From assembly GCA_963693285.1 (NCBI GenBank), contig OY848927.1, forward strand, positions 1,180,501-1,244,500: a stretch of 64,000 bases of DNA, in the 5' to 3' direction. Shown piece after piece: positions 4,201 through 64,000 of the stretch (positions are counted from its first letter, which is position 1; each line of letters begins with the position of its first letter). The stretch comes from Xestospongia muta (taxonomy: Eukaryota > Porifera > Demospongiae > Haplosclerida > Petrosiidae). The notes under the pieces were generated by a model. It did not search any database. It was not told the DNA's origin and worked only from the letters and a program-made list of their open reading frames with translations. A program made the translations under genes and the position numbers.

Positions 4201-4339
4201 TTAAAACCACCTTGTGTAGATGCTAGTTGACTGAAAGAGAAGGCTGCTATCTCCTTTGGTTTGTCAACTGCTGACTCTTCTACTGCTTTCTCTCCTTCAT
4301 TTTCTCCTTCTCCTTCACTTCCTTCACTCTCTTCCTCTT

Positions 4340-4372
<33 letters not shown>

Positions 4373-35906: not shown

Positions 35907-36106
35907 ACTCTTTCACAAGGTGTGGAATCAGTTAACGGCCATAAACGGAAACCCGTAATCTCCTCTAACACGTTGAAAACAGTTAATTTTTATTATAAAC
36001 TATATAGTTATTTTAACGTTAGAAAAAACGTTCACACTGTATAAAAGTTAGTGCAACAACAATTGTAAACAGAACAAATGTCACTAGAGATGCATGTATC
36101 AACTAC

Positions 36107-39100
36107 TTAACTGTCTAATATATAATTAAGAAGCCACTTTCCAGGCTCACTAATATACCCTAGAATTCCTTTCACAAAGGAAATAGATTTTTTACTGGCA
36201 TTGGTGGCACTTTCTGCCATTTTTTCCAATATTTCTTTCACACGGTTATGAGTCAAAGGAATCTTCTCTTCAGAAAGATTTACTGGAGCAGATTTAATTT
36301 GTGGTTTACTAGCACCTACTTCGATGACTTCTTCAACTTCCATACTATTTTTGCTCTCCACGCTGGTACCACCTTTGTCATTATCTCTTTTGCTTTTAGT
36401 GCCATTTTCTTTACCCATTGCACCATTATTGATCTCATCACCTTCTGTGTCATTTCTTGGTGGTAGAGAAGGAGTGGTCTCTTCCTCAAATGGTAGTAGC
36501 AGACGTGATGTTGAACTATTACCAGGTTCTTCCTAACAACATAGACAAATAAAGACAATCCTAATAATTTAGATGTCATTGTTTACTTTTAAATTATGGT
36601 TTATAACAATAATAGTATTATTGTTTATAGCCTGAACAAACAGCATGACATACTATGTCAAATGGGCAAGTGTAAAATGTATTATGAAAATCCCTACATA
36701 GTGAGTAGTTTTACACCAATGTATTAAACCACTATTATTGCTACACTGTCATTGTATCATGACAATTTATCAATCACCCTTCATTTTGAGGCTATTATGT
36801 AGGGATTGTCATTGATGCTGTTCCTACTTTGGTCTACTTAAGATGCTTTGTTCTGGTTGCCACATCTCATGATTATTTTGTATGAATATCCTTTGTGTGG
36901 TATGTGTAAACAATATTATAACTAAAAAATTACTTTTATCTTACCTGTGTCTTATCATTAACTGGTACCATACGATTATAGTTAACCTGAAGAAATAAAT
37001 TTGTCTCCTTTACTCTTGAACAAGAGGCATCCCAAAACTCCAAAAACCAATTGTCTCGATCAGGAAGGCTCAAAGGATGGGGATTCATGTGAGTTTTTTT
37101 GTAGTCTCCAGTAGGTACCACAGGGATTCCTTCAGCAATATTCGGACTTACACGTATGACATCTACTAGGAACTGTTTTAGTTCCTCCTTCCTTATCTCC
37201 ACTCGATGTTCAAATCTCTGTTTGAGCACTGTTACGTCATGCTCACCCAAATCAGAGGCAGTGTCAATATCTCTGTCATCTTTCCTAAAACAATCTTCCT
37301 TGTTAGCAAAAGTAAGAACAAACACTGCATAATTCCAGAACTCTTCTCCAAATGCCTTTGTGAGCTTTTCCATTGCATTCTTATCATCATCAGTAAGACG
37401 AGGATTGGTCATTTTAGTACAGTAAAGAACTAAACTGAGACGTTTACACTTATCTGTCATGTATTTAATGTATTCTTCCTCATTTACATTCCTATCTTGA
37501 AGACCAGGAGAGTCAAACACTGTTACCAGAACACCTTGAATAGTCACAGAATGTTCTGTAACTTCTGCAGTACGTCGTGTGGCACGGGCTCCTTCAGCAG
37601 CAACTTGAGCTCCAAGGATACCGTTAATAAGTGTAGATTTTCCCTGGCCTGTTTTTCCGGTAACAAGTATTCTAAGCTCTTGCTGACATGACCAGGTTTT
37701 AAGTAGCATATGTTCAAAGGTCTTAATTGCATCTTGTGTAAGCTCCTGAAGTGTTTTCTTTTTAAGAATTTTAGTTACAACACCACTGGAAGGCAGGTAT
37801 GCAGCCATTTGGCTTAGAATGCGAATGTTAAGGCTAGGGTCTTCAGAGATCAATTCTCTTAGCTCTTTCTCAACACAGTTGATTGTCTCCTGCTCAAGGC
37901 CATAAATTCTGAAAGTGACTTCTTTTTTCTTCAAAGGCACTTTTCGTGGAAGGATGGTAAGCATTTCTGAACGAGATGGTTGCTTTATCTTTTTCTTAAA
38001 TTCATTGCAAAAAACTTTGAAGTCACTATCTTGGTCAACAACAAAATGAAAACGTGTAATGACATCTGAATTATTGACATGAAATGACGCTAATTCATCA
38101 AAGACAACTGGAGTAGTCTCACGTGTTGGGTAACCAAGGTTACCAGCACCAAGACGGGGGATAGCGATAGATTGAAGTCCCTTAGCTTTGGCCTTTTGAA
38201 GAATGTTCTGAATGGCTTTTTTAAAATGCTATAAAAGAAAGAAATCAAATCAAAGGAACCCTTACATTATGTATCAGTATAATATGGTAAAAGGAACACA
38301 AATGAGATATCACTGGTCCAGAGGTATACATGTTTATTTTGAGGTTGACACTTAATTCATGTGTTATACTCAGGCTATGAATAATCTAGAAAGCCTAAGA
38401 ATGGTTTACACCATTCAATAAGTCTTGCAACTTCTAAAAATTTAATATTAAAATGGTTAGAGTGCTATCTATTGAGGTTTATTATAAACCATGCCATTAA
38501 AGTAGGTTGATGACGTTATTCATATGTCAGCATTATTGAAATCCCTCAAAACTGTCATCAAATTTAAATCAGACAGAGTATAGAATTGTATAGAAAAAAT
38601 TTCATTTATTGGTTAGTTTAACTGTACCATGCAGTAAGTCGGTAATTTCTATGAAACTGGTCAACAAATATACTATGTACATAAGTTTACTTATTTCCAC
38701 TTACTCTCATGGAATCTACATCATCATAATAGGGTAGAGCTACATGATAAATAGCTTTAGCTTTAGTATTATCAGCAGATGTTACTACTATTTGACCAGG
38801 TTTGAGCTTTCCTGAAGTGCTAATGTGTGTTTGAGCTTCATCTAATAGCTTTTGGCCACAAATCTTTGTTAATTGAGGAGATAGATCAAAGGTTAGGGTG
38901 GTAGAATTGACAATAACATCGACCTAAAAGGTAAAAAAGACATTGATAAATTGTAAGAGTGCACTTTACTATACATTTGAAAGATATTGTTCAATATATC
39001 AAAAGGAATCTTAGCATGTATATACTAAAACATATTAGTATACACATACTATACATCACAATTCAGATCTCTATATGCATTACTGGTATACAGTCTGTCA

Positions 39101-42100
39101 TGATCAACAAAGAAACTCAAGTTGTAAAAGATATCAACTCCCAATAAGAACATAGGAATGATGGCAAAAGCATGTCAAACAAGACCACAGAGGAAAAATA
39201 GTCTTCAAGGTCTTATTGTTTGTGCAATCCCAACTTGTTTACATATCCATAACAACCATATAAATCTATGTACAAGTATAATCATGCTATATAGTTCATT
39301 TACAGTCCTTTTTCTTTATTCTATTATCTATGAACAAACATAAACTAATTGGATATGATTCATACATTAAAATTTTCTTTGAAAATGGAAGCAATGTAGA
39401 GATGGTTTAGTATAACTCTATACAAAGATATGAGACAACCTGTTTAATTTTGGGTAAATATTCAGTGCTCTTTGAAAATCTATTTAATTGGACAACCCAA
39501 ACCATTCCTAAATAGGCAGTCCTGCCCAATACTAGCTGTGGTGAAATGTCACAGAGAATATAGTACTGAATATATCCTCTTTACTCATAATACATGTACA
39601 ATTACATAATCATCACGTAAATGTATTGGTACATTTACAATAACACGTACCTCTACATCTAAAATATTTCCCTTATAGATTTGGACAACCTCCTTTAGAC
39701 TACTAGTACTTCCACGTTTTTGTAAAGGTTGAGTTGTGTTGACAAGAGTGGTTGGGTCACTGAAAAAACTATAGCCTAACTCTTTCATCTTCTCTACAAA
39801 GATATGCTCATGTTTGGTATCTTTAATAAAGATCATGACAGAAAGATCATTATGCACAAACGGTCTTGCCAATACATTCAGAACAGCTTGAGCAAAATCA
39901 GTAACTGGATAGTTAACTGGAGGAGGAGCAACAATGATTTCTTTATTATCATTAGAGACGACATGATCAAAGAACTCTTCTAGAGCCTTTGTCAAAACAT
40001 CAAGTGGTCTTAAAGCATCTGTTAAATGAGGCAACACAACATGGCAATATGCCTGATTACCATTAGAGTGAATGACTGTTGTGATACCAGTGTGTACTTC
40101 ATGCTCATAGCCAGTTTGTTGTGCCATTGTGATCTCGTTATCAGGGATAAAAATTACAGGAGCATCAAAGTCGTTCTTGTTAAAGTCTCCACTGTAGACA
40201 GTGACACGCAATCCATCACGAGATGTTGCTTCGATAAGACAACACGGAACATTTGAGTAATTTTTTGATCTTTGAGGGTTGCCCCAAGTGGTTGCGTTTG
40301 CCTCCACAAACTTGTACTTTATAGTCACTTTGTGTGTGGACTCCAATTCTTGACATTTTGCATCAATGCTTTCCTTGACGATTTGATGCTGACCAGGGTC
40401 AGGTAGTAGTGAGACCGTCTTCATGAAAACCTCATCAAACAACGTTTCTACCCTTCCTTTAATGTAGTCAAGTGATCTAACTTCACCTTTAAGAGTAATG
40501 ACAACTTTGTCACTATAAGGATCTTTCATTGTTTTTTTCAACATCACTTTCTTTTCAAGTGCTAATTGTTGGAGTTTTTCAAACTTGCTATGTTGTTGTT
40601 TCATTATTACCTGCCATTTTCCATCTTCTACTTGAAATTTCTCCTCAACTTCATTAGGATGAGCTAAAAAAGGAAAGGATATAAAAGGTAAAGAGAGGTT
40701 TTGCATCCAAATCTTGCTAAGATTGCTCTGAACCATGCATGTGGTATGTTCATCAATTTATGCTGCACATATGGAAAAAATATGTGCAATAATTTCTCAT
40801 TTATCACATCTGAAAATACTATATACAACTAAACTATATACTACATGGACTAGTACTGTTTTCAAGTGTCATGGCAGATAAAATGATGGATGTCATCGTA
40901 GAAGCTATGTAGAATGACATAAAATTCAATGCATGTTTCATGCCATTGTTGCCATCTTGGAAGGCAACAAATCTGCAAATAATTAAGCTTCACTTTAAAG
41001 ATTATTACACTCAGCATTACTAACTACATATTATAACAAACATTTTATTCAGCAACTTAAAGAACAATCTAGTACTATTCACTGTGTAGAAACAAACAAT
41101 TCCTCTATAGAATCTACTCATTACCACACCCTTAGCTTGTCAATTGTCCTCCAATTGGCAACAGGTGGGCGTGTTTTTAATAATATTCATTGAAGTATGG
41201 AGTGACTGCAATAAATATGGTTTTACGTAACCATCTGTGCAATGCTTACATTCTGTGTCATAACATTGTATTATTATACAGCATTCAATGTTGTAACACA
41301 GAGACATGTTATCATAGTCTCATCCTCAAATCTACACACAACTGAAAAGGTCTGGTAACTTGATTTGTGTCCCAGCTTAGCCCAGCTAAGGAATGTTGCC
41401 CAGGTGTCATATGTAATTATGGGAGGTGTTGTAAAATAACATTTTTAGTATAGTTTGAAAATGGCTTTCCTTTGGTGAGACACAAAAGTCTACCAGGCCT
41501 ACCTTTCACTTGTGTATAGATCTAGGGACAAGACTAATCATCGTAATGATGTATTGAAATACTCTATCTACTTAGTCCTTACAGTATGTTCTGGGAAGAG
41601 TTTGAAAGGCAGGTACATCAGTTATTCGTACTGGTATACATACAATAGGAAGTCCCAAGAGATGAGATGGTGGCTGATTCATTACATTTGTCACTCCTAG
41701 ATATTATAAATACCAATAATTAAAAAACCCTGATTAAATAATATAAAAAATATAAGTAATAAGAAACAAACAAGGTAGCCATAGATGTTAGCAATGGCAT
41801 GTTCATTTATTTTAAATAGGATTTCTAAGAATTTGATTAGTTAGATATCTAATTCAGAGATTATACTTATCAAGATTGTAAACTATGTTATAATGTCAAT
41901 AAATAAAACTAAAGCACTATGGTTAATATCATTATGTCAAGAAAGTGACTTCTAATCCTACTTTATGTTATAGTTCACCAAAATTAGAGTATTATTACAA
42001 AAATTTATAATAATATTTTAATTTTGGTGAATTCTCTAATTTTGATATTTAATAATAACGTTGGTAAATTTATAGAGGTATTTTATGGATATTACTTTGA

Positions 42101-43500
42101 AAAAATTATTTAGTATAGAAATTAGAACTCCAAATTTTCAGAAATATTATGGTATACATAAATGTAATAAAGAGTAAACTAACCTTGTTTATCTGTAAAG
42201 GTCAAATAGGCAGTGTCCCCTTCCACCTCACACTGATTAATTTGTAAATCATAAGGTTTTCGACTAAAACAAGTCCTTAGAGCATTCTCAGTTGTTACTT
42301 TATTTAGGCGTATTCCAGTAATCTTCAAAGCATCTTCAGTCCCAAGAGAGATTGGTTCAATATTTTCATTACCCTCTGTGCATGAATAAATGTTCACTGA
42401 ATCTGAGGGACTAGAGATCAAGTCTGAAGTGGGTCTTTCTGCAGTGAAGGCAACAGGTTGGCCTCTTATAGTATGAGTCTTTGTCACCAAATATGGAAGA
42501 TCTATATAACAGAAACAGTTATGACTATAATAAGATTTGATCCCATTGTAAAGTTATTTCAACCAATCAATATGGAAATTTTAAAGTTATCAAGGCTCTT
42601 CACATAAGAAGTTGTACTATACCTATCATCATAGCTAAGCTAGTGAGTAGAGAATCACAAAATTTTATTACTATAAACAATTTGAGAATGGACAAGATCT
42701 TTAACATCAATTTTGTTTGCCTTCAGACAACCAATAATCTTATACAAAACACAGATAGATACATACATATACAATCACACAAATTAAAGCAAATTTAATA
42801 GTCAGGATGGTTATGTTTAGGCACATTATTTACCTGCAGAATCATCCAATTCCACAGTGATAGTACTTCCTTCGTCATCTTCATTGATTGCATTTATCTT
42901 TATTTCTCTGCCATCCAAATATCCTTCTACTCTTTCTTTTCCCAAACCATGGGGTGGATTGTGTACAACAACAAAACAGGGTGTGTTCAAACTATTGCAC
43001 CACTCATTGGTACAGTTTACATTGTAGTCATCAATAGTGAGGGGAAATTGATTTTTAAGTCTTTGCAGACCTAAAATAAAGTGAATCTATTATTAGATTC
43101 AATGGTTCAAAAATGGAGTTCTGACAATGAAATTATGTAAATCAATACATACATTTAGAGTACATGATATAAAATAGTGTTTTACCATATATAATAGTAA
43201 TAACATTACCCAGACAATAAAGGCACAAAGTATCATATAATTACATGCTAAAATACAGTGGAAGCACAATATTTTATCTAGTACCCAGCTGTTATTATAT
43301 ATATACTCACTCTCATCACTAGCTTTTATAGTTACTAAAATGGGGCCCCTCGAGCTCGGCGAATCTTCTAAATGGCTTGTTCGTTCGACTTCTACGCCAT
43401 ACACTTTAAGAGCTTGTTTAATATCTTTTCCTGGTGGAACTCCTTCAAGTTGAAGTGTGCACCTCACTGTTGGCGTAGTACAAGCAAGGTTAATAGCCAT
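36107..43500 (-). CDS. PARP14-like RRM/KH-macrodomain protein fused to an AIG1-type GTPase, copy 1
   Basis: Seven exons: 43311-43500, 42834-43070, 42184-42501, 39651-40663, 38705-38923, 36945-38228 and 36107-36532. They sum to 3687 nt with consistent phases, giving 1228 residues. The N-terminal exons (1-248) look like RRM-type modules of the PARP14 kind (CTLQLEGVPPGKDIKQALKV; CFVVVHNPPHGLGKERVEGY). Residues ~250-410 resemble its KH-like repeats. Residues ~415-580 form a degenerate macrodomain (TVYSGDFNKNDFDAPVIFI). Residues ~587-745 form a canonical-looking macrodomain (VDVIVNSTTLTFDLS, IPRLGAGNLGYP), likely to bind ADP-ribose. A P-loop GTPase follows: GKTGQGKST (~850), DSPGLQD (~898) and NKED (G4), closest to AIG1/GIMAP. 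An acidic Ser/Thr linker leads to a hydrophobic C-terminal tail (FVKGILGYISEPGKWLLNYI). No ADP-ribosyltransferase domain is present. The function is unknown; an immune role is conceivable from family membership only. Confidence 0.82.
41970..42035. repeat. Short inverted repeat, part of a decayed MITE in intron 3
   Basis: TTCACCAAAATTAGAGTATT is followed after a short loop by its inverse AATATTTTAATTTTGGTGAA. The same hairpin is at about 54419-54478 in the second copy, where about 290 bp of further sequence to the left adds a second, weaker pair of inverted ends (TTCTAAAAAATTGGCAAATT near 54172; ATTGGCAAATTTATAGAGGT near 54509). Probably a MITE that predates the duplication and was later trimmed in this copy. 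Confidence 0.5.
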
Positions 43501-43504
43501 AATC

Positions 43505-43697
43505 TATGGCGTGCCCGTTTGTTTCAAATTTTGATCCTAAATCTGGACAACTTTCTCAATTAGTATACGGAGTTGTACAATCGATATTGATCGATCGATC
43601 AATGCCGCCGCGATCAGTTGATTGTAAAACTCCGTATATTAATTAAGATAGTTGTCAGGATTTAGGATCAAAATTTTGAAACAAACGGCACACCATA
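43505..43697. mobile_element. Foldback/MITE element with about 80-bp inverted arms
   Basis: Left arm 43505-43585 (TATGGCGTGCCCGTTTGTTT...) and right arm 43619-43697 are near-perfect inverse copies; the right arm ends CAAACGGCACACCATA. The central loop holds GATCGATCGATC and GCCGCCGCG. The element is flanked by a 6-bp direct repeat ATAATC (43499-43504 and 43698-43703). The paralogous site at 57523 is empty, with one ATAATC. There is no coding capacity. It sits four bases upstream of the start codon of the macrodomain/GTPase copy 1. Confidence 0.88.
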
Positions 43698-43703
43698 ATA
43701 ATC

Positions 43704-45098
43704 AGCTACTGTTGGCAAGCAGAAACAACATTGATTGGTTAACTTGATTGTACAGATATTAGTTTCGTGCCCAATCTCCCATTCCTAAAAGCGAGTGGAG
43801 GACCTCTGGAAACGAGAATATAATTATAATCTTACATACACGCAGTCTGACGTCAAGTCAGTGCACAAATATATTCACTATCACAATGTAAATTTAACAA
43901 TTTTTATGTACTTCCAGTTGTCAAAAGTTAACAAATGACCTACAAAATAAGCGAGGTTCTTCAGAAGGTAGACTGTTAGATTTTACTTATTATAAGTAAA
44001 TTCTATAATAGGAATATAAGTCTTACAGTAATATTCCCATGACTAGGAAATTATAACAACCATTTTGGTGAGACAAGCCTGAATGAACATGTTATTTAAT
44101 TATTATATGGTAGTGGTGTGTTCAGTAATCCTTTCATATTGTGTTAACATTGAATGTTAATAATAAACAAAAAACCATAAATTGATGCATGTTGGAATAA
44201 AGGAGTATTTATAATTTTGAGATAAATGATGACTTTTAAAATAATTATTCAAGTTATTGTGGTTATTATAATTGTGAAAAACAAATTCAAAACCTAATAC
44301 ATCAAGAGTAAGCAAAAAGAAAATCAGCTATATGTTAATCATATATTCAAAGAAATAAGCTGACAAAGTTAAAGCACTCATTATAGATGAATACAAATAT
44401 AAAATACAAAGTAAGCAAAACAATGAAAAGATAAACAAAACTTCAAAGCAGAAGAAAATTATTAATAAAAAGCTTTGGGGGAGAACCTTCTATACTTTCT
44501 ATATTACCTACATTTACACAAAGAGCAAAAATTATTTTACAATGATGAATTCAATAAGGATACTTATTTGTGTATATAGCAAAGCCTCTTGTAGTTCCTC
44601 TATGTTCACAATGTCTAATTTTCTTTATTATTATAGAGTGTACTCAGGATATACTATACAACAATACTATATATAATTTGTAATGATTGATGTGATTATA
44701 TCAAAGTAAAAAAATGAGAGGTTACTTTCAAGGTCTATAGAATCACTACTTTATTCATTAAAGTGCTTGAAATAAGACTTTTAAACCAGATACCTCATGC
44801 GAAGTCATAAGTTTCTGTATAAAAGTAATCTTTAAAAGCCTTCTAGTTTTAGTTATTGTAGTGTTAACAGAAATAATAACCCTGCATTATTATGGTCAAT
44901 CAATAGTTTGAAAAAGATGTGAAACAATTACAAACAGCTCAGTTTAGTTACAAACAAATATAGCCAAAAAGAGAAAAAGACAATGCAAGTAACTATGTAA
45001 TGTAATATACTACTTTATGAAAGAAGTTCAAATAAGCTAGCTTTATAATAATACATTATGCGATAAATTAAACAATGCAAGTTTTTTAAAATGATCCT
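43704..45098. other. Spacer between MYO7 fragment and macrodomain/GTPase copy 1
   Basis: About 1.4 kb of AT-rich sequence, paralogous to 57530-58944. It should contain the promoter of the GTPase gene and the old MYO7 3' UTR. I see no gene in it. Confidence 0.6.
43848..43855. promoter_or_regulatory. CRE palindrome TGACGTCA upstream of macrodomain/GTPase copy 1
   Basis: The same palindrome in the same context (TCTGACGTCAAGTCAGT) is at 57680-57687 before copy 2. Here it is 348 bp from the start codon instead of 156 bp, because of the inserted foldback element. The role is inferred from the motif and its conservation. Confidence 0.5.
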
Positions 45099-45873
45099 CT
45101 AGCGTCTCCCTCCTAAACCACGTGGGCCAGCCCCTGATTGTTTTTTGTTTATATTAGCTAGTACAAGAGAGATGTAGGAAGTTAAAAGATCATCCATTTT
45201 GTAACCCTAAAGTAAAAAGGAAACTCATTATTTCTGCAAGAAAATTCTTTCTTTCTCCATTTATATAATAAAATTGTTCTTTTATTGTACTTACCAGTGT
45301 GGTTTCACAAAGGAGACGACTTCCTCGTAACAGATTTCCAATAGTCATATGGAAATAATTGGATCCACAGCTCCAGTTGGAGATCATTGTGAAAGGATGA
45401 GTGGCAAGGATTTCCTAATAAGGTAATAAAAAGAAATACATAAAAATCACATATAGTTATTGTGATATACCTTGTTGGCTGGATCAATGAGCATCACACC
45501 ATTCTTATTGAGACCAATCAATAATACATCTGGTAATCGTGGCTCTGTTGATTGCTAAAAAAAAGTAGAAAGAATAATAAAGTCTTGTGGTCTCTTTTCT
45601 CTTGCATAGTATCTTGATCATTGTCATATCATCATTCTAAACTTACTCGGACTTCAAAGAAAGCAGATCCAAATGTTTCCCATCGACTGACATATTTTAA
45701 GAAGCTTATCTTAGCCTCTTCTGAGCCTTTGGCATGATGTCGTGAGAAATTAGCAACAATTGCCTAAAGTAAGAATGAGTTAGATTTACTGCAAATTTGT
45801 ATGTACCCTTTTCCAGTCTTCAGGATGAAACTCTCGTAGCATATCATGTGGTACTAACTCCCTCAGCATTTGT
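45099..45873 (-). pseudogene. Myosin VII 3'-end fragment (duplicate of the last exons)
   Basis: Five exons that match the 3' end of the intact MYO7 gene (58945-59718): QMLRELVPHDMLREFHPEDW (45807-45873), a segment near 45680-45770 (KISFLKYVSRWETFGSAFFEVR), one near 45470-45555 (PDVLLIGLNKNGVMLIDPANK), [20 protein letters not shown] (about 45297-45415), and the end [20 protein letters not shown] through GAGPRGLGGRR, stop at 45099. Reading frames are open and differ from the intact gene by very few residues. The motor, first MyTH4-FERM, SH3 and most of the second MyTH4-FERM are missing because the duplication breakpoint lies directly upstream. It has no promoter of its own and is presumably non-functional unless it is transcribed from the SR fragment. 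Confidence 0.88.
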
Positions 45874-45945
45874 CTGTAAGAAATGTAGATATAAATATGG
45901 TGTACTGAGATAATAATCATGCCACATTATTTTATGTTTTCTCAC

Positions 45946-46895
45946 CTTCTCTTTATTGCCATGAGACCATTCTACAATAATACGTGATCCTAATATCTTC
46001 GTCCCATGTTCATTCTGCAATGCATCCTTTAAAAATAAAGACATGTTAATATCAGATGTCTAAACACTTTATCAAGCTATGACAATCAACTAAATTTGAA
46101 ACAATATATACTTGACCTGTGGCATATAAATCTTAGCACAAACTTTATAGATGTTATGAATTCCATATGAACGTTGATTTGTACATTTGTATAACCTACT
46201 AACTATACTATTACAAGTACCAAGTTAACAATATTGACTGGTTACAATATAATCAATACTTAATAGTTTCTACATACTGTTGGTTAGTGAGTATCACTTA
46301 TCATGTGTAGGGCAATAAAAGTGGGTGTGGTTTAGGCTAATGGAAGCATGGTAGTCGAGTGGCAACATCTGGAGGTAGCAGTGGAAGAGGTAGCACTCAT
46401 GTCTGGTCAAACTGGTTAAACCAGTTTCATATGACAAAACATTTACAAGTTAGATGAACTGGTTGTATCACAGAATAAGGATATGGAATAGGAAGGGTAA
46501 GTAGTGGGTGGGGCTTAGAGTGCAAAGCCAGTACTTAGTGGTAGCTTCCCTTTAAGTATCAATGAACAAATGGACATATAACAGTGGTGAATGGACAAAT
46601 AAAATGATATACCTCAGCATCACGTTTGTCTTCATACTCAATAAAGCCATAAGCTGCAATAGAATAATATCTAATTGAGGAGCTCTAACAGACTTACCCA
46701 TTTTCATTCCTTTGGAGAAACAATAGCAAAATTTGAAAAGAACATAAGATAAGAGCACGTGACACACAAAAGTGAATTACCTTGTTTCACATCACAGCGA
46801 TTCATCTTCCCATACCGATAAAAAATATCTTCCAAGTCTTTAGAACGACAACCAAGAGGTAAACGACCAATAAAAAGTTGGTGAGCGCTGGACAT
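45946..46895 (-). pseudogene. SR splicing factor 5'-end fragment (RRM only)
   Basis: Exons 46781-46895, the 12-nt micro-exon 46698-46709, an exon near 46612-46652 and 45946-46026 encode the same RRM as the intact gene, with one change (GTKILG for GTEILG). Promoter-proximal sequence is also copied. All RS-tail exons are missing: downstream of the donor at 45945 the sequence switches to MYO7 intron at about 45911. If transcription continues, the next acceptor is that of the MYO7 fragment (45873). The SR exon ends in phase 0 and the MYO7 exon needs phase 2, so the fusion would stop after about ten codons. Confidence 0.88.
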
Positions 46896-47122
46896 ACTCT
46901 TTCACAAGGTATGGAATCAGTTAACGGACATAAACGGAAACCCGTAATCGACTCTAACCACGTTGAAAAATCAGTTAACTTTTATAGTTATTTTTGAAAG
47001 TTAGAAAAAAATGCTCACACTTTGTAAAAGTTACTGCAACAACAATTGTAAACAAAGTAAATGTCACTAGAGATGTATGTATCAACTACTCCAACTGTAT
47101 TATATAATTAACAATGTATCAT

Positions 47123-50100
47123 TCACTTCTTCTTTATCAGTGTAAGAAACCACCTTCCAGGTTCCCCAATATATCTTATAACCCCTTCCACATAAGAAGC
47201 AGCTTTTTTACCGATAATTCTTCCAAGCATTCTTCCCAATATCGTTCTCAGACGGTCATTATTCAAAGGAATCTCCTGATTAGAAGGATGTTCTTGACCA
47301 TGTTCAGAAGGCATTTCTTCATGTTCATTATTCTCCTGATTACAACGATGCTCTTGCTCAGGTTCAGAAGACATTTCTTCAGATTCTGTATTTTCTATCT
47401 GAGTAGGTCCAATAGGAACATCATGGCCAAGTGTCTCCCTGGTAAATTCTTGAGCTGTGGGTATCTTCTCATTGGTTTGTTCCTCATGTATACTTGGTCG
47501 TGGTTTGGTTTCTGAAGTACTATTTTCTTTATCTGACTCCTGCAATGGTAAATCTTTTGATGCATCTTCCATTTGTGGTTTACTAGCAACTACTTTGATT
47601 ACTTGTTCAACTTTCATACTATCTTTGTTCTCCACACTGGTACTTTCTTTGTCCGTTGCACCATTATTGATCTCATCGCCTTTTGTGTCATTTATTGGTG
47701 ATAAAGAAAGAGTGGGTTCTTCTAACTCCAATGGTGGTAGCAGAGGTGATGTTGAACTATTACCAGGCTCTTCCTAACAACATAGACAAATAAAGAGAAT
47801 CCTAATAATTTAGATGTCATTGTTTATTTTTAAATTATGGTTTGTAACAATAATAGTCTGAACAAACATCATGACATACTATGTCAAAGTGGTAGGTGTA
47901 AAATGCAGTATAAAAATCTCTACATAGTGGTTTTACTTCAAGATATTAAACCAATATTGGTATACTGTCATTGTTACTAATTTAATATCATGACAATTTA
48001 TCAATCGCCCTTCATTTTGAAGCTACTATGTAGAGATTGTCATTGATGCCATTCCTACTTTGGTCTACTTAAGATGCTTTTGTTCCAGTTGCCACATCTC
48101 ATATTATTATGCATAAATATCCTCTGTATGGTAGAATAAATAATGTAACTGTCACTATGTGTAATCATGCTTCAAAGCTTCTAGCTCTCTTCATCAAGTG
48201 CCTTCTAACATTTTATATTTGCTCAAAACCTTATATCAATTTTCCAATCTTAAATGCATCAGTGTTTTACTGTGACATCAGCATCTTTAACACAACTATT
48301 ATTTCTATATTTATTATTGTACAATGCATAAGGACTGGAAAATATAGCTATTAGAAACGAGGTTTTGTTATTGTGCTATTAAGTTCTATAATAAAAAATT
48401 ATTGGCCAAACCTGTGTTGTTGGTGTAGGTTCTTCAATTCCATACAAGTTCTAAATATTAAAGAGAAAAACAATATTATAATCCAAAAATTACTTTTGTG
48501 TCACCTGTGTTTTATCTTTAACTGGTACCATACGATTATAGTTAACCTGAAGAAATAACTTGGTGTCCTTTACTCTTAAACAACAGGCATCCCAAAACCT
48601 GATAAACCAATTGTCTCGATCAGGAAGGCTCAAAGGATGGAGATTCATGGCAGTTTTTTTGTAGTCTCCAGTAGGTACCACAGGGATTCCTTCAGCAATA
48701 CTCGGACTTACACCTATGACATCTACTAGGAACTGTTTTAGTTCCTCCTTCCATAATTTCAGTCGATGTTCAAATCTCTGTTTGAGCACTGTTTTGTCAT
48801 GCTTATCCAAATCAGAGGCAGTGTCAATATCTCTGTCATCTTTCCTAAAACAATCTTCCTTGTTAGCAAAGGTAAGAACAAACACTGCATAATTCCAGAA
48901 CTCTCCTCCAAATGCCTTTGTGAGCTTTTTCATTGCATTCTTATCATCATCAGTAAGACGAGGATTAGTCATTTTAGTACAGTAAAGAACTAAACTGAGA
49001 CGTTTACACTTATCTGTCATGTTTTCAATGTATTTCTCCTCGTTTACATTCCTATCTTGAAGACCAGGAGAGTCAAACACTGTTACAGGAACATCTTGAA
49101 TAGTCACAGAATATTCTGTAACTTCTGCAGTACATCTTGTGGCACGGGCTCCTTCAGCAGCAACTTGAGCTCCAAGGATACCATTAATAAGTGTAGATTT
49201 CCCCTGGCCTGTTTTTCCAGTAACTAGTATTCTAAGCTCTTGCTGACATGACCAGGTTTTAAGTAGCATAAGTTCAATGGCCTTAACTGCATCTTGTGTA
49301 AGCTCCTGAAATGTTTTCTTTTTAAGAATTTTAGTTACAACACCACTGGAAGGTAGGTATGCAGCCATTTGGCTTAGAATGCGAATGTTAAGACTAGGCT
49401 CTTCAGAGATCAATTCTCTTAGCTCTTTCTCAACACAGTCGATTGTCTCCTGCTCGAGGCCATAAATTCTGAAAGTGACTTCATTTTTCTTCAAAGGCAC
49501 TTTTCGTGGAAGGATGGTAAGCATTTCTGAACGAGATGGTTGCTTTATTGTTTTCCTAAATTCATTGCAAAAAACTTTGAAGTCACTATCTTGGTCAACA
49601 ACAAAATGAAAACGTGTAATGACATCTGGATTATTGACATGAAATGACGCTACTTCATCAAAGACAACTGGAGTAGTCTCACGTGTTGGGTAACCAAGGT
49701 TACCAGCACCAAGACGGGGGATAGCGATAGATTGAAGTCCCTTAGCTTTGGCCTTTTGAAGAATGTTCTGAATGGCTTTTTTAAAATGCTATAAAAGAAA
49801 GAAATCAAATCAAAGGAACCCTTACATTATGTATCAGTATAATATGGTAAAAGGAACACAAATGAGATATCACTGGTCCAGAGGTATACATGTTTATTTT
49901 GAGGTTGACACTTAATTCATGTGTTATAACTCAGGCTATGAATAATCTAGAAAGCCTAAGAATGGTTTATACCATTCAATAAGTCTTGCAACTCCTAAAA
50001 ATTTAATATTAAAATGTCTAGAGTCTAGCTATTGATGTTTATTATAAACCATGCCATTAAAGTAGGTTGATGACATTATTCAAATGTCAGCATTATTGAA

Positions 50101-53100
50101 ATTCCTCAAAACTGTCATCAAATTTAAATCAGACAGAGTATAGATTTGTATAGAAAAAATTTCATTTATTGGTTAGTTTAACTGTATCATGCAGTAAGTT
50201 CCTTGAAACTGGTCAACAAATATACTATGTACATAAATTTACTCATTTCCACTTACTTTCATGGAATCTCCATCATCATAAGAGGGTAGAGCTACATGAT
50301 AAATAGCTTTAGCTTTAGTGTTATCAGCGGCTGTTACTACTATTTGACCAGGTTTGAGCTTTCCTGAAGTGCTAATGTATGTTTGAGCTTCATATAGTAG
50401 CTTTTGGCCACAAATCTTTGTTAATTGAGGAGATAGATCAAAGGTTAGGGTGGTAGAATTGACAATAACATCAACCTAAAAGATAAAAAAGACATTGATA
50501 AAATTGTAAGAATGAACTTTACTATACATTTGTAAGATATTGTTCAATATATCAGAAGGAATCTTAGCATGTATATACTAAAACATATTAGTATATACTA
50601 AAACAGACTAGTATATACTAAAACATATTAGTATATACACATACTATACATCACAATTCAGATCTCTATATGCATTACTGGTATACAGTCTGTCATGATC
50701 AACAAAGAAACTCAAGTTGTAAAAGATATCAACTCCCAATAAGAACATAGGAATGACGGCAAAAGCATTTCAAACAAGATCACAGAGGAAATAGTCTTCA
50801 AGGTCTTATTGTTTGTGCAATCCCAACTTGTTTACATGTCCATAACAACCATATAAATCTATGTACAAGTATAATCATGCTATATAGTTCATTTACAGTC
50901 CTTTTTCTTTATTCTATTATCTATGAACAAACATTTGTAGGTAATATGATGCATAAACTAATTGGATATGATTCATACATTAAAATTTTCTCTGAAAATG
51001 GAAGTAATGTAGAGATGGCTTAGTATAACTCTATACAAAGATATGAGAGAACCTGTTTAGTTTTGGGTAAATATTCAGTGCTCTTTGAAAATCTATTTAA
51101 TTGAACAATCTAAACTATTCCTAAATAGGCAGTCCTGCCCAATACTAGCTGTGGTAAAATGTCACAGAAAATATAGTACTGAATATATCCTCTTTACTCA
51201 TAATACATGTACAATTACATAATGTGTTGGTGGTTTTGCAATATCACATACCTCTACATCTAAAATATTTCCCTTATAGATTTGGACAACCTCCTTTAGA
51301 CTACTAGTACTTCCATGTTTTTGTAAAGGTTGAGTTGTGTTGACAAGAGTGGTTGGCTCACTGAAAAAACTATAGCCTGACTCTTTCATCTTCTCTACAA
51401 AGACATGCTCATGTTTGGTATCTTTAATGAAGATCATGACAGAAAGATCGTTATGCACAAATGGATTTGCCAATACATTCAGAACAGCTTGAGCAAAATC
51501 AGTGACTGGATAGTTAACTGGAGGAGGAGCAACAATGATTTCTTTATTATCGTTACAGACGACATGATTAAAGAACTCTTCTAGAGCCCTTGTCAAAACA
51601 TCAAGTGGTCTTAAAGCATCTGTTAAATAAGGCAACACAACATTGTAATATGTCTGATTATCATTAGAGTGAATGAATGTTTTGATATCAGAGTGTACTT
51701 CATGCTCACAGCCAGTTTGCTCCGTCATTGTGATCTCGTTATCAGGGATAAAAATTACAGGAGCATCACATTCGTTCTTGTTAAAGTCTCCACTGTATAC
51801 AGTGACATACAATCCATCACCAGATGTTGCTTCAATAAGACAACACGGAACATTTGAGTAATGTTTTGATCTTTGAGGGTTGCCCCAAGTGGTTGCATTT
51901 ACCTCCACAAATTTGTACTTTATAGTCACTTTGTGAGTGGACTCCAATTCTTGACATTTTGCATCAATGCTTTCCTTGACGATTTGATATTGACCAGGGT
52001 CAGGTATTAGTGAGATCTCATTCACTAAAACTTCATTAAATAACATTTCTAAGCTTCCTTTAATGTTGTCAAGTGATCTAACTTCACCTTTAAGAGTAAT
52101 GACAACTTTGTCACTATAAGGATCTTTCATTGGCTCTTTCAATATCACTTTCTTTTTGCATGCTATTTGTTGGAGATTTTCAAACTTGCTATGTTGTTGT
52201 TTCATTATTACCTGCCATTTTCCATCTTCTATTTGAAATTTCTCCTCGAGTTCATTAGAGTGAGCTAAAAGAAGAAAGGATATATAGTAAGTAAAAGGTA
52301 AAGAGAGGTTTGTATGCAAATCTTGCTAAGATTGTTCTGGACCATGCATGCGGTATGTCCATCAATTTATACTGCACACATGGAACAAATATGTGCAATA
52401 ATTTCTCATTTATCACATCAGCAAATACTATATACAACTAAAATATATACCACATGGACTAGTACTATATACTACATGGACTAGTACTATATACTACATG
52501 GACTAGTACTATATACTACATGGACTAGTACTATATACTACATGGACTACACTATATACTACATGGACTAGTACTATATACTACATGGACTAGTACTATA
52601 TACTACATGGACTACACGGACTACACTATATACTACATGGACTAGTACTATATACTACATGGACTACACGGACTACACAATATACTACATGGATTAGTAC
52701 TATATACTACATGGACTACACAGACTACACTATATACTACATGGACTAGTACTATATACTACATGGACTAGTACTATATATTACACGGATTAGTACTATA
52801 TACTACATGGACTAGTACTATATACTACATGGACTACACTATTTACTACATGGACTAGTACTATATACTACATGGACTAGTACTATATACTACATGGACT
52901 AGTACTATATACTATATGGACTAGTACTATATACTACATGGACTAGTACTATATACTACATGGACTACACTATATACTACATGGACTAGTACTATATACT
53001 ACATGGACTAGTACTATTTACAAGTGTCATGGCAGCTAAAATGATGGATGTCATAGTTGAAGCTATGTGGAGTGACATAAAATTCAATGCATGTTTCATG

Positions 53101-56100
53101 CCATGGTTGTCATCTTGGAAGGCAACAAATCTGTAAACAATTAAGCTTCACTTTAAAGATTATTACACTCACGATTATTGACTACATATTAACAAACATT
53201 TTATTCAATAACTTGAAGAATAATCTAGTACTATTCACTGTCTAGAAATAAACAATTCCTCTATAGAATCTACTCATTACTACACCCTTAAATTGTCAAT
53301 TGTCCTCCAATTGGCAACAGGTAGACGTGTTTTAATAATATTCATTGAAGTATGGAGTGGCTGCAATAACTGTGGTTTTACATAACCAATAACTACCCCC
53401 TGCAATGCTTGCATTCTGTGTCATAACATTGTATTATTATATAACATTCAATGTTGTGACACAGGAGACATGTTTATCATAGTCTCGTTCCCAAATCTAC
53501 ACACAACTGAAAAAGGTCTGGTAACTTGATTTATGTCCCAGCTAAAGAGTGTTGCTCACATGTCATTATGTAATTATGGGAGGTGTTATAAATGAACAAT
53601 TTTAGTATAGTTTGAAAATAGCGTTCCTTCACTGGGACACAAAAGTCTACCAGACCTACTTTTTACTTGTGTATATGTCTGAGGACAAGACTAGCCATTG
53701 TAATGATGTATTGAAATACTCTATCTACTTAGTCCTTACAGTATGTTCTGGAAGGAGTTTGGAAGGCAGGTATATCAGTTATTCGTACTGGTGTACATAC
53801 AATAGGAAGTCCCAAGAGATGAGATGGTGGCTGATTCATTACATTTGTCACTCCTAGATATTATAAATACCAATAATTAAAAAAAAGATAAATAATATAA
53901 AAATATAAGTAATAAGAAACAAACAAGGTAGCCATAGATGTTAGCAATGGCATGATCATTTATTTTAAATAGAATTTCTAAAAAATTGATTAATTAGATA
54001 TCTAATTCAGAGATGATACTTATCAAGACTGTAAACTATGTTATAATGTCAAAAATGAAACTAAAGCACTATTATTATTATTATCATTATACCAAGGAAG
54101 TGGCCTCTAATCCTATTTAAGTTATGGGTCACTTCAATAATTGACATGGCAAGTTATATACTGTAAAACTTCTAAAAAATTGGCAAATTAGACTCTCTTA
54201 TAGTAATTTTAAGGTTATAAATAAATTAGAATATTCATTATTCAAAATAATTAATTTCAATTAAATTAGAAGGTATAACCACTTCAAAAAACTGATTGGA
54301 TGTTTCAGATCTGAGACAAATTAACCTCAATAAATTTGAAAACAATTTCTAATAAGACTAGCTCATATCCTAAAGCTTGCATTTACTGTTGGAGGCTTAC
54401 TTGCTAAAATTAGAGGAGTTCACCAAAATTAGAATATTATTACAAAAAATTTATAATAATATTTAAATTTTAGTGAATTTCTCTTATTTTGATATTTAAA
54501 TAGTAACATTGGCAAATTTATAGAGGTCTTTTATGGACATTACTTTGAAAAAAATTATTTATTATAGAAATTAGAACACCAAATATTTATAAATATTATG
54601 GTATACATAAATACGATAAAGAGTAAACTAACCTTGTTCATCTGTAAAGGTCAAATAGGCAGTGTCACCTTCCACCTCACAATGATTAATTTGTAAATCA
54701 TAAGGTTTTCGACTAAAACAAGTCCTTAGAGCATTCTCAGTTGTTACTTTATTTAGCCGTATTCCAGTAATCTTCAAAGCATCTTCAGTCCCAAGAGAGA
54801 TTGGTTCAATATTTTCATTATCCTCTGTGGATGAATAAATGTTCACTGAATCTGAGGGACTAGACATCAAGTCTGAAGTGGATCTTTTTGGAGTGAAGGC
54901 AAAAGGTTGGCGTTTTATAGTATGAGTCTTTGTCACCAAATATGGAAGATCTATTTAACAGAAACAGTTATGACTATAATAAGATTTGATCCCATTGTAA
55001 AGTTATTTTAACCAATCAATATGGAAATTTTAAAATTATCAAGGCTCTTCACATAAGAAGTTATACTACACCTATCATTGCTAAACTAGAGAATAGAGAA
55101 TCACAAAATTTATTTCTATAAACAATTTGAAAATGAACAAGATCCTTATCATCCATTCATTTGCCCTCAGACAACCAATAATCTTTACAAAACAGATACA
55201 TACATGCATGTACAATCACACAAAACAAATTTAATAGTCAGGATGGTTATGTTTAAGCACATTATTTACCTGCAGGGTCATCCAACTCCACAGTGATAGC
55301 ACTTCCTTCATCATCTTCATCGATTGCTTTTGTGTTTATTTCTTTGCCTTCCAAATACACTTCTACTATATCTTTTCCCAAACCATAAGGTAGATTGTGT
55401 AAAACAACAAAACAGGGTGTGTTCAAACTATGATACCACTCATTGGTACAGTTTACATTGCACTCATCAATAGTGAGGGGAAATTGACTTTTAAGTCTTT
55501 GAAGACCTAAAATAAAGTGGATCTATTATTAGATTTAAAGGTTCAAAAATGGAGTTCTGACAATGAAATTATGTAAATCAATACATGCATTTAGAGTACA
55601 TAATATAAAACAGTGTTTTACCATATATAGTAACCTTGCAAAAATCCGGACTATGGCTAAATTCGGACTACTATATTGACTTGTGTTATCCAGCAAGTTT
55701 AGTCTGAAATTACAAACGCGACAGCACTGCCTAAAACCGCTCATTGTTCGCATATCTTACCAGCTACATCCACAAGACTCAGACCAGTGTATAGCTCAGA
55801 AATCAGGCTTTCCATTGATATATAATATAACAGGATTATTCTCACAAACACGTGGAATATTATTAATAAAATTAACGCGTGGATTCACAGACATCTAATT
55901 TACAGCAAACACAGAGAGGTAAGGCTATACTTTACAGTGGCTACATTTTACCAATATTATCAACAAGAGAGAAAAAATGTTAAATACAGAGAAGAGTAGA
56001 AAGAGACATGGATGGACTAAAGAGGCAATGAAAGAGGCTATAGATAAAATTAGAAAAGGAGAAATGACAGCTTATCATGCTCAAAAAGTTTACAGCATTC

Positions 56101-57524
56101 CTAAACAAAGTTTAAGTGATAGACTGACTGGAAAAGTAGAGCTCAATGCTAAATTGGGAAGACCAACAGCTTTAACAACAACTGAAGAAAATGAAATAGT
56201 TGAGAGGTGCATTTTAACAGCCAGCAAAAGAAACATTGAATCAGTTGTTATCAATACACCAGAAAACAATCCATCTACTTGTGCTTTAGCTGAAGGAACT
56301 GTATCTACATCGTCTGGTAGTACCCCAGGATCTCTAAGAGATTTTTTGGGAAGCTATTTCAAACACAGACACCCAGAAGAGTTACACAACAGTTTAGGAA
56401 ACGTCTTACTGGATTTGGGGAGTCTTACAGGTGAGGAAGTGCTAGAAAGAGCTCGAAAAGAAGAAGATAGGAAACAAAAAGAACTAGAAAAAGAGGAAAG
56501 GAAAAAATTAAGAGAAAAGAAAAAAATGAACAAGATGAAAAGAAGAAAGAAAACAAAAAAAGAAAAAAGATAAAGAAACAATGAAAAGAAAATGTGAATC
56601 ACAGAAAGTGGCACGAAAGTCTAAACGACGAAAGGCAAACAAGGCTGAGAAAGATGGATAGTTAGAATGCGGACAAGTCTCTGATGATGATGAACAATGG
56701 ATTCAATGTGAATCTTGCCGTGGATGGGTTCATCAGATTTGTGGTGGTCACCCTGGTTTAACTTGTGATCAACTTCAAGGACTTGTTTTTCTCTGCAAAA
56801 CATGTGATGCAGAGGAATTAGTAACCCATTAACAGTTCATAAGTAGTAAGATTTACCTTTAGTTAGGCTTGCTTTTCTTCTTTGTTTTGTTTAAAGCTAA
56901 GTATACACCATCAATCCTTGTAGAGCAATATTCATATACGTCCAGAAACATCCATTAAATAATCAGTATACTCATAGTCCGGATATATAATAACTAGTCC
57001 GAAATAAAAATTTTCAAGGACTCATTCAAAAAGAGTTATACTACTAAAATGGTGAGATTTATGATCATAATTTTACATCAAGCAACAATTTTGAGTATTT
57101 TTTTAAAAATTTTTACATGATGTTCTGTCTCAAACTTATGAGGAAAAAGGTGTTGACGCTTAGTGCAAAGTAAAAAATAGTCCGGAATTTGGCTACTTTA
57201 CTATATAATAGTAATAACATTTCCTACACCCAGACACTAAAGGCACAAAGCATCATATAATTACATGCTAAAATACAGTAGGAGCACAATATTTTATCTA
57301 GTGCACAGCTATTATCATAATTATATATACTCACTCTCATCACTAGCTTTTATAGTTACAAAAATGGTGCCCCTTGAGCTCCGTGAATCTTCTAAATGTC
57401 TTGTTCGTTCGACTTCTACGCCATACACTTCAAGAACTTGTTTGATATCATTTCCTGGTGGAACTCCTTCAAGTTGAAGTGTGCACCTCACTGTTGGCGT
57501 AGTACAAGCAAGATTAATGGCCAT
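47123..57524 (-). CDS. PARP14-like RRM/KH-macrodomain protein fused to an AIG1-type GTPase, copy 2
   Basis: Seven exons with the same lengths and phases as copy 1 except the last: 57335-57524, 55270-55506, 54633-54950, 51252-52264, 50257-50475, 48505-49788 and 47123-47773, giving 1303 residues. The GTPase keeps GKTGQGKST, DSPGLQD and NKED, and the macrodomain keeps the GAGNLGYP loop. About 8% of residues differ from copy 1 in the GTPase exon. The last exon is 75 codons longer. It holds an acidic linker with two imperfect blocks (EEMSSEPEQEHRCNQE, EEMPSEHGQEHPSNQE) and then the conserved tail (AASYVEGVIRYIGEPGRWFL). A possible extra in-frame 39-nt exon (about 48412-48450, NLYGIEEPTPTTQ) lies between exons 6 and 7 and has no counterpart in copy 1. 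Intron 1 contains the pogo-like transposon. Confidence 0.82.
52440..53020. repeat. 22-bp minisatellite in intron 3 of copy 2
   Basis: About 26 imperfect copies of CTATATACTACATGGACTAG plus TA. The equivalent place in copy 1 (about 40829-40860) has a single unit, so the array expanded after the segmental duplication. Confidence 0.95.
55977..56573 (+). pseudogene. Pogo-type HTH ORF of the transposon, catalytic domain missing
   Basis: A 198-codon ORF starts MLNTEKSRKRHGWTKEAMKE and continues through AYHAQKVYSIPKQSLSDRLT and GRPTALTTTEENEIVERCIL, a Pipsqueak/CENP-B-type helix-turn-helix as in pogo and Jerky transposases. It then passes straight to a low-complexity acidic/Lys-rich coiled segment (ERARKEEDRKQKELEKEERK) and stops. 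The DDE domain that should follow is absent, so this is an internally deleted, non-autonomous copy. Confidence 0.8.
56581..56832 (+). pseudogene. PHD-finger C-terminal remnant of the transposon
   Basis: After a frame change, MKRKCESQKVARKSKRRK leads to an in-frame TAG at about 56659 and then LECGQVSDDDEQWIQCESC, GWVHQICGGHPGLTC and FLCKTC, a PHD-type zinc finger with its Cys/His ladder. PHD-like fingers occur at the C-terminus of some invertebrate pogo-superfamily transposases. The stop codon and frame change show decay. Confidence 0.75.
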
Positions 57525-57529
57525 AATCA

Positions 57530-58944
57530 GTCAGTGTTGGTAAGCGGAAACGAGTTTGATTGGCTAACCTGATTGCACGAGGAGATCTAGTTCTGGTCTC
57601 GTGCCCAAACTCCCATTCGCGGTGGGCCTTTGGGAACGAGAATATAATTATAATGAAAATCTATTGCTTACACACAATCTGACGTCAAGTCAGTATACAA
57701 ATATATTTTATTCATTATCAAAATCTAAATTTAACAATTTGTTTATGTACTTCCAGTTGTCAAAAGTTAACAAATGATCTACAAAATAAGCAAGGTTCTT
57801 CAGAAGGTAGACTGTTCGATTTTACTTATTATAAGTAACTTCTATAATAGGAATATAAGTTTTACAGTAACATTCCCATTACTAGGAATTATAACAACCA
57901 TTTTGGTGAGGCAAGCCCAAGTGACCATGTTATTTAATTATTCTATAGGTGACAGGTGTGTTCAACAATCTTTTCATATTGTGTTAATGTTGAACGTTAA
58001 TTATGAACCAAAAACCATAAATTTGATCCATATTGGAATGAAGAAGGAGTATTTATAACATTGAGATAAATGATGAATTTTTAATTATTAAAGTTATTGC
58101 TAAGTTATTATAATTATGAAAAAGTAAATTCAAAACTTTATACACCAAGAGTAAGCAAAAAGAAAAGCAGTTATGTGTTAGTCTTATATTCAAAGAAATA
58201 AGCTAACAAAGTTAAAGCACTCATTATAGATGAATACAACTATAAAATAAAAAGTAAGCAAACAATGAAAAGATAAACAAAACTTCAAAACTGAAGAAAA
58301 TTATCAATAAAAAGCTTTGGGGGAGAACCTTTTACACTTTCTATATTACCTACATTTACACAAAAAGCAAAAATTATTTTACAATGATGAATTCAAAGGG
58401 ATACTTATTTGTGTATATAGCAAAGCCTCTTGTAGTTCCTCTATGTTCACAATGTCTAATTTTCTTTATTATTATATATAGAGTCTACTCATGATATACT
58501 TATACAACAATACTATATATAATTTGTAATGATTGATGTGATTATATCAAAGTAAAAAAATGAGAGGTTACTTTCAAGGTCTATAGAATCATTATTTTAT
58601 TCATTAAAGTGCTTGAAATAAAACTTTTAAACCAGATACCTCATCCAAAGTCATAAGTTTCTGTATAAAAGTAATCTTTAAAAGCCTTCTAGTTTTAGTT
58701 ATTGTAGTGTTAACAGAAATAATAACCCTGCATTATTATGGTCAATCAATAGTTTGAAAAAGATGTGAAACAATTACAAACAGCTCAGTTTAGTTACAAA
58801 CAAATATAGCCAAAAAGAGAAAAAGACAATGCAAGTAACTATGTAATGTAATATACTACTTTATGAAAGAAGTTCAAATAAGCTAGCTTTATAATAATAC
58901 ATTATGCGATAAATTAAACAATGCAAGTTTTTTAAAATGATCCT
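57530..58944. other. Spacer between MYO7 and macrodomain/GTPase copy 2
   Basis: Paralogous to 43704-45098, with no gene seen. It contains the MYO7 3' UTR region and the promoter side of the GTPase gene. Confidence 0.6.
57680..57687. promoter_or_regulatory. CRE palindrome TGACGTCA upstream of macrodomain/GTPase copy 2
   Basis: Perfect palindrome 156 bp before the start codon, conserved in copy 1 at 43848. Function inferred. Confidence 0.5.

Positions 58945-64000
<5,056 letters not shown>

Follow-up and report, generated by a model that had tools for sequence, protein, structure and literature searches.

PARP14-like macrodomains joined to an AIG1-type GTPase in the sponge Xestospongia muta

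Why would the front half of a PARP14-like protein and an AIG1/GIMAP-type GTPase be encoded in one reading frame? The question is raised by two tandem genes, here called A and B, in a 64,000-nucleotide stretch of the genome of the sponge Xestospongia muta (contig OY848927.1, positions 1,180,501 to 1,244,500; the window). As proposed in an original prediction made from the sequence letters, a PARP14-derived macrodomain front is fused in both genes to an AIG1-type GTPase, without the WWE and PARP domains, and this fusion is present in the genome in four intact copies, with purifying selection supported between two pairs of them. A similar joining occurs in ray-finned fishes, where it appears to have arisen independently.

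Domain structure of the fusion genes

Gene A (47123..57524, minus strand) encodes 1303 amino acids in seven exons (57335-57524, 55270-55506, 54633-54950, 51252-52264, 50257-50475, 48505-49788 and 47123-47773), and gene B (36107..43500, minus strand) encodes 1228 amino acids, also in seven exons (43311-43500, 42834-43070, 42184-42501, 39651-40663, 38705-38923, 36945-38228 and 36107-36532). The introns have GT-AG borders and each gene reads as a single open frame, confirming the two intact genes of the original prediction. The exons were put together manually, using sequence only, with open frames and splice borders as guides. Exon 6 (A, 48505-49788; B, 36945-38228) holds the whole GTPase, preceded by a KH-like segment and the C-terminal half of a macrodomain, so that this part of the fusion is free of splicing inference. 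The genes are carried by a tandem duplication, 46500-59755 against 35516-45910 (span 35516..59755), recognized from collinear blastn blocks of 79-93% identity.

A search of the genome (158 Mb, 28 contigs) revealed two further fusion genes on contig 13, gene C (3861152-3874115, 1263 amino acids) and gene D (3879063-3896153, 1259 amino acids). Both have the domain order of A and B and the same intron between exons 5 and 6, and in D the Macro, AIG1 and RRM_PARP14_3 profiles all match above their cut-offs.

Pfam matches for both halves of A and B were far above the cut-offs, bearing out the claim of a macrodomain and an AIG1 domain in each gene. The Macro profile (cut-off 22) matched residues 601-700 with 65.8 bits in A (E 4.4e-18) and 67.2 bits in B (E 1.6e-18), and the AIG1 profile (PF04548, cut-off 27) matched residues 844-968 with 71.6 bits in A (E 7.7e-20) and 72.2 bits in B (E 4.8e-20). 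All five motifs of the original prediction (VIVNS, GAGNLGYP, GKTGQGKST, DSPGLQD and NKED) were found in the A and B proteins. The Macro match belongs to macrodomain 2 (A, 49561..50475; B, 38001..38923; both minus strand), which in A starts at the end of exon 4, continues through exons 5-6 and is interrupted by the phase-0 intron between these; in B it likewise lies in exons 5-6. For a profile made from A and D, the best matches in the PDB were PARP14 macrodomains (E 6.7e-18). Ahead of macrodomain 2, exon 4 encodes a degenerate macrodomain 1 (A, 51363..51848, residues approximately 388-549; B, 39762..40247, on the same basis; both minus strand). The Pfam scan of this region gave no match, though profile-profile comparison with macrodomains gave a probability of 95.3% over 140 columns. 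An AlphaFold model of exon 4 was discarded at a predicted local distance difference test score (pLDDT) of 38.

Results for the predicted RRM/KH-like modules were mixed. A region like RRM 3 of PARP14 lies at 54901..55408 in A (minus strand; residues 97-159, exons 2-3) and scores 21.3 bits against a cut-off of 24; it is unlisted for B, and paralogue D reaches 33.2 bits in two stretches, of which the best is 242-283. The KH-like segment and the helix that follows it, which in A occupy 49261..49533 (minus strand) within exon 6 and contain the fusion junction, were recognized in the fusions only by alignment to a PARP14-like gene of the same genome, M1, in which the KH_PARP14_8 match itself falls short of the cut-off. 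The Pfam scan of A, B and D showed neither a WWE nor a PARP catalytic domain.

The GTPase domain occupies 48541..49260 in A (residues 836-1075) and 36981..37700 in B (both minus strand), the two being 89.2% identical over 240 codons. G1, G3 and a stretch resembling the AIG1 conserved box are intact in all four fusions. The sequence RLTDDDKNAM(K/E)KL, read in A and B between G3 and G4, may correspond to that box, whose position follows the available part of PMC7053062. Of a structure model of exon 6 (mean pLDDT 63.7), the GTPase portion alone was considered. The proteins end in a tail, which in A is amphipathic and contains PG[KR]W (47123..47269, minus strand). The tail of B (36107..36247, minus strand) is 42% identical to it (E 9.9e-5). 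The A tail matches that of D weakly (33%, E 0.008), and its matches to GTPase-only genes of the genome have E above 0.02. The hydrophobic moment of the tail is 0.71 in A, 0.67-0.68 in C and D, and 0.55 in B.

Several features were observed within the introns. Intron 1 of A carries an insert of approximately 1.56 kb (55633-57196) with CCGGAC-type ends that B is without; it encodes a 216-amino-acid open frame (55923-56573, plus strand), presumably a transposon-type DNA-binding protein. A minisatellite with a unit like AGTCCATGTAGTATATAGTACT lies in intron 3 of A (52466-52991) and is missing in the aligned part of B. Intron 3 of both genes also keeps coding-like stretches (41560-41700 and 53720-53860; 40860-40975 and 53020-53135) that fall outside the fusion protein as modelled. 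In intron 6 of A, a 39-base in-frame stretch with AG/GT borders (48412-48450) is a possible cassette exon; it has no clear counterpart in intron 6 of B.

Relatives of the two halves and selection on the fusions

Both halves of the fusion have close relatives in the same genome. For the front half these are M1 (contig 13, 2857501-2864143) and a second PARP14-like gene, M2 (contig 13, 2127101-2132800), each assembled in part, from exon 4 on; other relatives at 2.04 Mb of contig 13 and at 6.39 and 6.41 Mb of contig 1 were left out of the assembly. M1 is 40% identical to the fusions in the region of exon 4, 63% in exon 5 and 66% at the start of exon 6, and macrodomain 2 of A is 62.7% identical to that of M1 and 56.7% to that of M2. 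From exon 4 on, the fusions, M1 and M2 have in common the degenerate macrodomain 1 (exon 4 of M1, like that of the fusions, has no Pfam match), macrodomain 2 and the KH segment, and the coding frames of M1 and M2 break within macrodomain 2 at the position of the fusions' intron, their splice borders not having been checked singly. M1 then continues with macrodomain 3, the sub-threshold KH_PARP14_8 match, WWE (29.5 bits against a cut-off of 21.1) and PARP, which matches in two successive exons (33.9 and 27.0 bits; cut-off 26.7), and M2 has macrodomain 3 (42.4 bits) and PARP (28.6 bits). In contrast to PARP14, M1 and M2, the fusions have no macrodomain 3, WWE or PARP and carry the GTPase and tail instead. 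At least 37 PARP catalytic matches were found genome-wide, none of them at the fusion loci (contig 11, and 3.861-3.896 Mb of contig 13).

For the GTPase half, a genome search with exon 6 gave 62 matches, 19 of which cover the GTPase at 59% identity or more. Four of these 19 are the fusions. The remaining 15 are GTPase-only genes, of which 12 lie on contig 13 and three on contig 2, and their GTPases are 59-69% identical to those of the fusions. C and D are flanked by the GTPase-only genes of the contig 13 tandem array, and the 25 kb upstream of C contain five of the 15. Apart from the first exons of C itself, this interval gave no match to the front half at E of 0.001 or below, so that the PARP14-like part is absent there. 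One GTPase-only gene that was aligned shares with the fusions the helix preceding the GTPase. The last 47 residues of D recur behind GTPase-only genes, four times at 91% identity and otherwise more weakly, in some cases with E above 0.01; these tails are known from the search matches.

The junction can be placed from two alignments. That of D with M1 stops in the KH segment at FVHEK/FVYEK, and that of D with a GTPase-only gene starts at the helix immediately after this point. Together with the tail that D shares with GTPase-only genes, this indicates, as judged from the sequences, that a PARP14-like gene was cut behind its KH segment and its front part joined to a complete GTPase gene, tail included.

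Selection was examined by the method of Nei and Gojobori with Jukes-Cantor correction, C being entered as its 3' 1067 amino acids. Between A and D, synonymous divergence (dS) is 0.87 overall. For this pair the ratio of nonsynonymous to synonymous divergence (dN/dS) is 0.21 for the GTPase and ranges from 0.42 to 0.48 over the four front regions; between C and D the ratio is 0.52. Reading frames are undamaged in all four copies across a dS of 0.87. These data support purifying selection acting between the two pairs, A/B and C/D.

Proposed function and alternatives

With moderate confidence we favour the view that the fusions are GTP-controlled effectors with a PARP14-type recognition arm, probably in cell-autonomous defence. 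The PARP14-type half would recognize a target, which may be an RNA, a protein, or a complex that is modified or under stress. Self-association is a property of GIMAP, Toc34 and septin relatives, and the GTPase would serve as a nucleotide-controlled switch that self-associates in like manner, with the amphipathic tail bringing it to membranes. Whereas PARP14 writes ADP-ribose, the output of the fusions would in this way be GTPase assembly. An immune role is suggested by what the two families do elsewhere. PARP14 is described as acting in interferon responses and, as far as the available parts of these sources go, AIG1-family genes are switched on in a snail by components of the bacterial wall (PMC7053062) and respond to immune challenge in a coral (PMC3723955), and two GTP-binding (GIMAP-family) genes are among the immune genes of the sponge Dysidea avara that differ between exposure to symbionts and to seawater microbes (PMC11229196).

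Several observations weigh against an effector of this kind. The AIG1 match in A and B spans only profile positions 1-127 of 212, the first 60% of a domain that at full length includes the G5/IAN part, and RRM_PARP14_3 is below cut-off in A and unlisted for B. G4 reads NKED in A and B and NMEN in C and D; nucleotide specificity may be altered in the latter (NMEN occurs at loci L041-L044 and L047, contig 13, 3861152-3896153, and also in the GTPase-only gene L033). The match between the tail ends of the two pairs is borderline (E 0.008-0.01), and a dN/dS of 0.94 in the tail region between A and D indicates fast evolution. Finally, dN/dS between A and B is 0.77 overall, a value that relaxed constraint could give.

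Some of these features would also fit an integrated decoy or sensor, in which the PARP14-like half would mimic PARP14, or partners of PARP14, to bait antagonists from pathogens, and the GTPase would fire when the bait is touched. Such a decoy is possible but rather unlikely. It would account for binding pockets that decay while the fold region stays, for the fast evolution of A and B (dN/dS 0.77), for the same joining having occurred twice, and for the tandem duplication and the array of GTPase relatives. Pocket decay would fit a simple loss of ADP-ribose binding as well, however, and no pathogen partner is known.

The macrodomain pockets also bear on the idea, put forward in the original prediction, that a reader or eraser of ADP-ribose is coupled to a nucleotide switch. 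We consider this unlikely, even though macrodomain 2 of A and B matches structures of PARP14 macrodomains and retains both VIVNS and GAGNLGYP. The loop motifs of mono-ADP-ribosyl hydrolases, given in the available part of PMC10470015 as N(6x)GG[VLI] and G[VIA][YF]G, are absent from all four fusions (C as the portion used above) and from the parts read of M1 and M2, whereas two frog PARP14 records (P0007 and P0009), used as a yardstick, carry both. An eraser role is unlikely on this comparison, and that part of the prediction is not upheld. In the region of loop 1, macrodomain 2 of A is five residues shorter than that of M1, with GAGNLGYP in loop 2 kept, and B is alike; in C and D, AVVKRGYL or AVIKRGYS stands in place of GAGNLGYP and VYVNY in place of VIVNS. 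The pocket has thus decayed differently in the two pairs, loop 1 being shortened in A and B and loop 2 lost in C and D, which makes ADP-ribose binding unlikely as a function shared by the fusions. The case for a reader is weak, the intact loop 2 of A and B speaking for it and the other changes against it.

A gene-model artefact, with the PARP14-like and GTPase exons belonging to separate mRNAs or the copies being decaying relics, is very improbable. The joining of exons by hand and the high dN/dS between A and B would allow it, but the C-terminal half of the macrodomain, the KH segment and the GTPase lie within one exon in all four copies, the finding on which we reject it. Moreover, M1 and M2 break frame at the same place in macrodomain 2, with the qualification on their splice borders given above, and none of the four copies has acquired a frameshift.

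Other features of the window lie outside the fusion genes. Open frames upstream of A (59631-63481) presumably encode an unconventional myosin tail with MyTH4/FERM domains, and what we take to be fragments from the 3' end of this myosin-like gene, together with fragments of an SR-type splicing factor, recur beside B at 45100-46020 and 35000-35900. A 2040-amino-acid open frame lies at the left of the window (1245-7367); its repeats are, we assume, of the Ran-binding type (RanBP2/Nup-like). An Rfam search of positions 30000-64000 gave zero matches.

Comparison with fish and Amphimedon proteins

A protein search with the macrodomain-GTPase part of A returned 12 proteins, including one Paralichthys record with both domains (E 1.1e-9). 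A search with this record gave 318 proteins, of which 120 were listed and are counted here. Macrodomain and GTPase occur together in 94 of the 120, the Paralichthys record included, and the macrodomain comes first in 87. The organism names shown are of ray-finned fishes, from eel (Gymnothorax) to perch-like, a few records having no name. Annotations include PARP14-like, GTPase IMAP family member and zgc:195075. The architecture is therefore already in the databases as fish proteins, under names that hide the joining. No paper on a macrodomain and an AIG1/GIMAP domain in one protein was found among those listed in searches of the open literature, most subscription papers being outside its scope; the view of the original prediction that the combination may be undescribed accordingly agrees with these searches and fails for deposited sequences.

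The fish and sponge proteins are alike in outline and differ in detail. All four fish proteins scanned (P0012, P0023, P0045 and P0076) have two Macro stretches followed by AIG1, as here, and RRM_PARP14_1 is above cut-off in three of them. Their GTPases belong to the GIMAP branch and match AIG1 profile positions 1-206 or 1-207 of 212, in contrast to 1-127 in A and B. In the fish proteins macrodomain 2 abuts the GTPase, with a median gap of four residues (n=93), whereas the sponge fusions have the KH segment between them. The hydrolase loop-1 motif occurs in 55 of the 120 listed, mostly fish, proteins and in none of the four sponge fusions; a stricter loop-2 pattern matched none of the 120, yet P0045 shows the plain motif.

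A tree of the GTPase was built from 49 rows, 32 of them non-fish and 17 hand-picked from 114 fish rows (10 with and seven without a macrodomain; 97 left out); the contig 2 GTPase genes were not included. The sponge fusions group with one ENA protein and with GTPase-only genes from their own genome (97/98), and then with Amphimedon (94/89). Fish rows fall together whether or not they bear a macrodomain (100/99). The branch of the fusion GTPases stands apart (100/99) both from the fish GIMAPs and from a further 12 AIG1 rows of the sponge genome; by this tree they are not GIMAPs in the strict sense. Monophyly of the fusions within the sponge rows is weakly supported (68/95), and a long-branch warning applies to ena_P0006, ena_P0010, spg_L010 and the spg_L014 group. 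An ancient family inherited from an ancestor shared with fishes, for which the similar domain order would speak, is hardly credible and is rejected by the tree, a single clade of fish and sponge fusions being 372 log-likelihood units worse (approximately unbiased test, p-AU 1.25e-8), and macrodomain 2 of A being 22-30% identical to fish sequences among the 140 lines printed, as against its 62.7% to M1. The rejection of a common clade indicates, at the level of sequence, that the sponge and fish fusions are independent and that the joining arose at least twice.

The nearest GTPases in the protein database are from Amphimedon queenslandica (P0001-P0005), at 41-44% identity. In P0001 the GTPase comes first, followed by caspase-like and ApoL-like regions, and there is no macrodomain. 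In a precomputed Pfam list, the GTPases of P0001-P0005 are joined to caspase-like and mostly also to ApoL-like regions. AIG1 genes are said in the available part of PMC7053062 to be lacking in Amphimedon, a statement qualified by a deposited Amphimedon protein in which, next to regions of caspase and ApoL, AIG1 matches over profile positions 3-128 with 52.4 bits (cut-off 27). A corresponding caspase link of the X. muta array was considered and dropped; the 106 caspase matches listed genome-wide include none at 3.84-3.96 Mb of contig 13 or 7.28-7.33 Mb of contig 2. A protein search that started from A and D aligned as two rows found no relatives in other sponges, which says little about their absence.

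GIMAP and Toc34 GTPases as such are not known to carry macrodomains, and PARP14-type recognition and AIG1/GIMAP-type GTPases have mostly been studied apart. Their convergent joining is what makes the fusion interesting; if it occurred twice independently, this suggests that the two modules act in one pathway. We tentatively raise the further possibility that the PARP14 front half is a portable arm, moved from an ADP-ribosyltransferase to an AIG1-type GTPase both in a sponge and in ray-finned fishes, and thus on at least two occasions. The product might be a guard-like effector, in which the sensing of PARP14-type targets or of PARP14 antagonists would lead to GTPase assembly at membranes.

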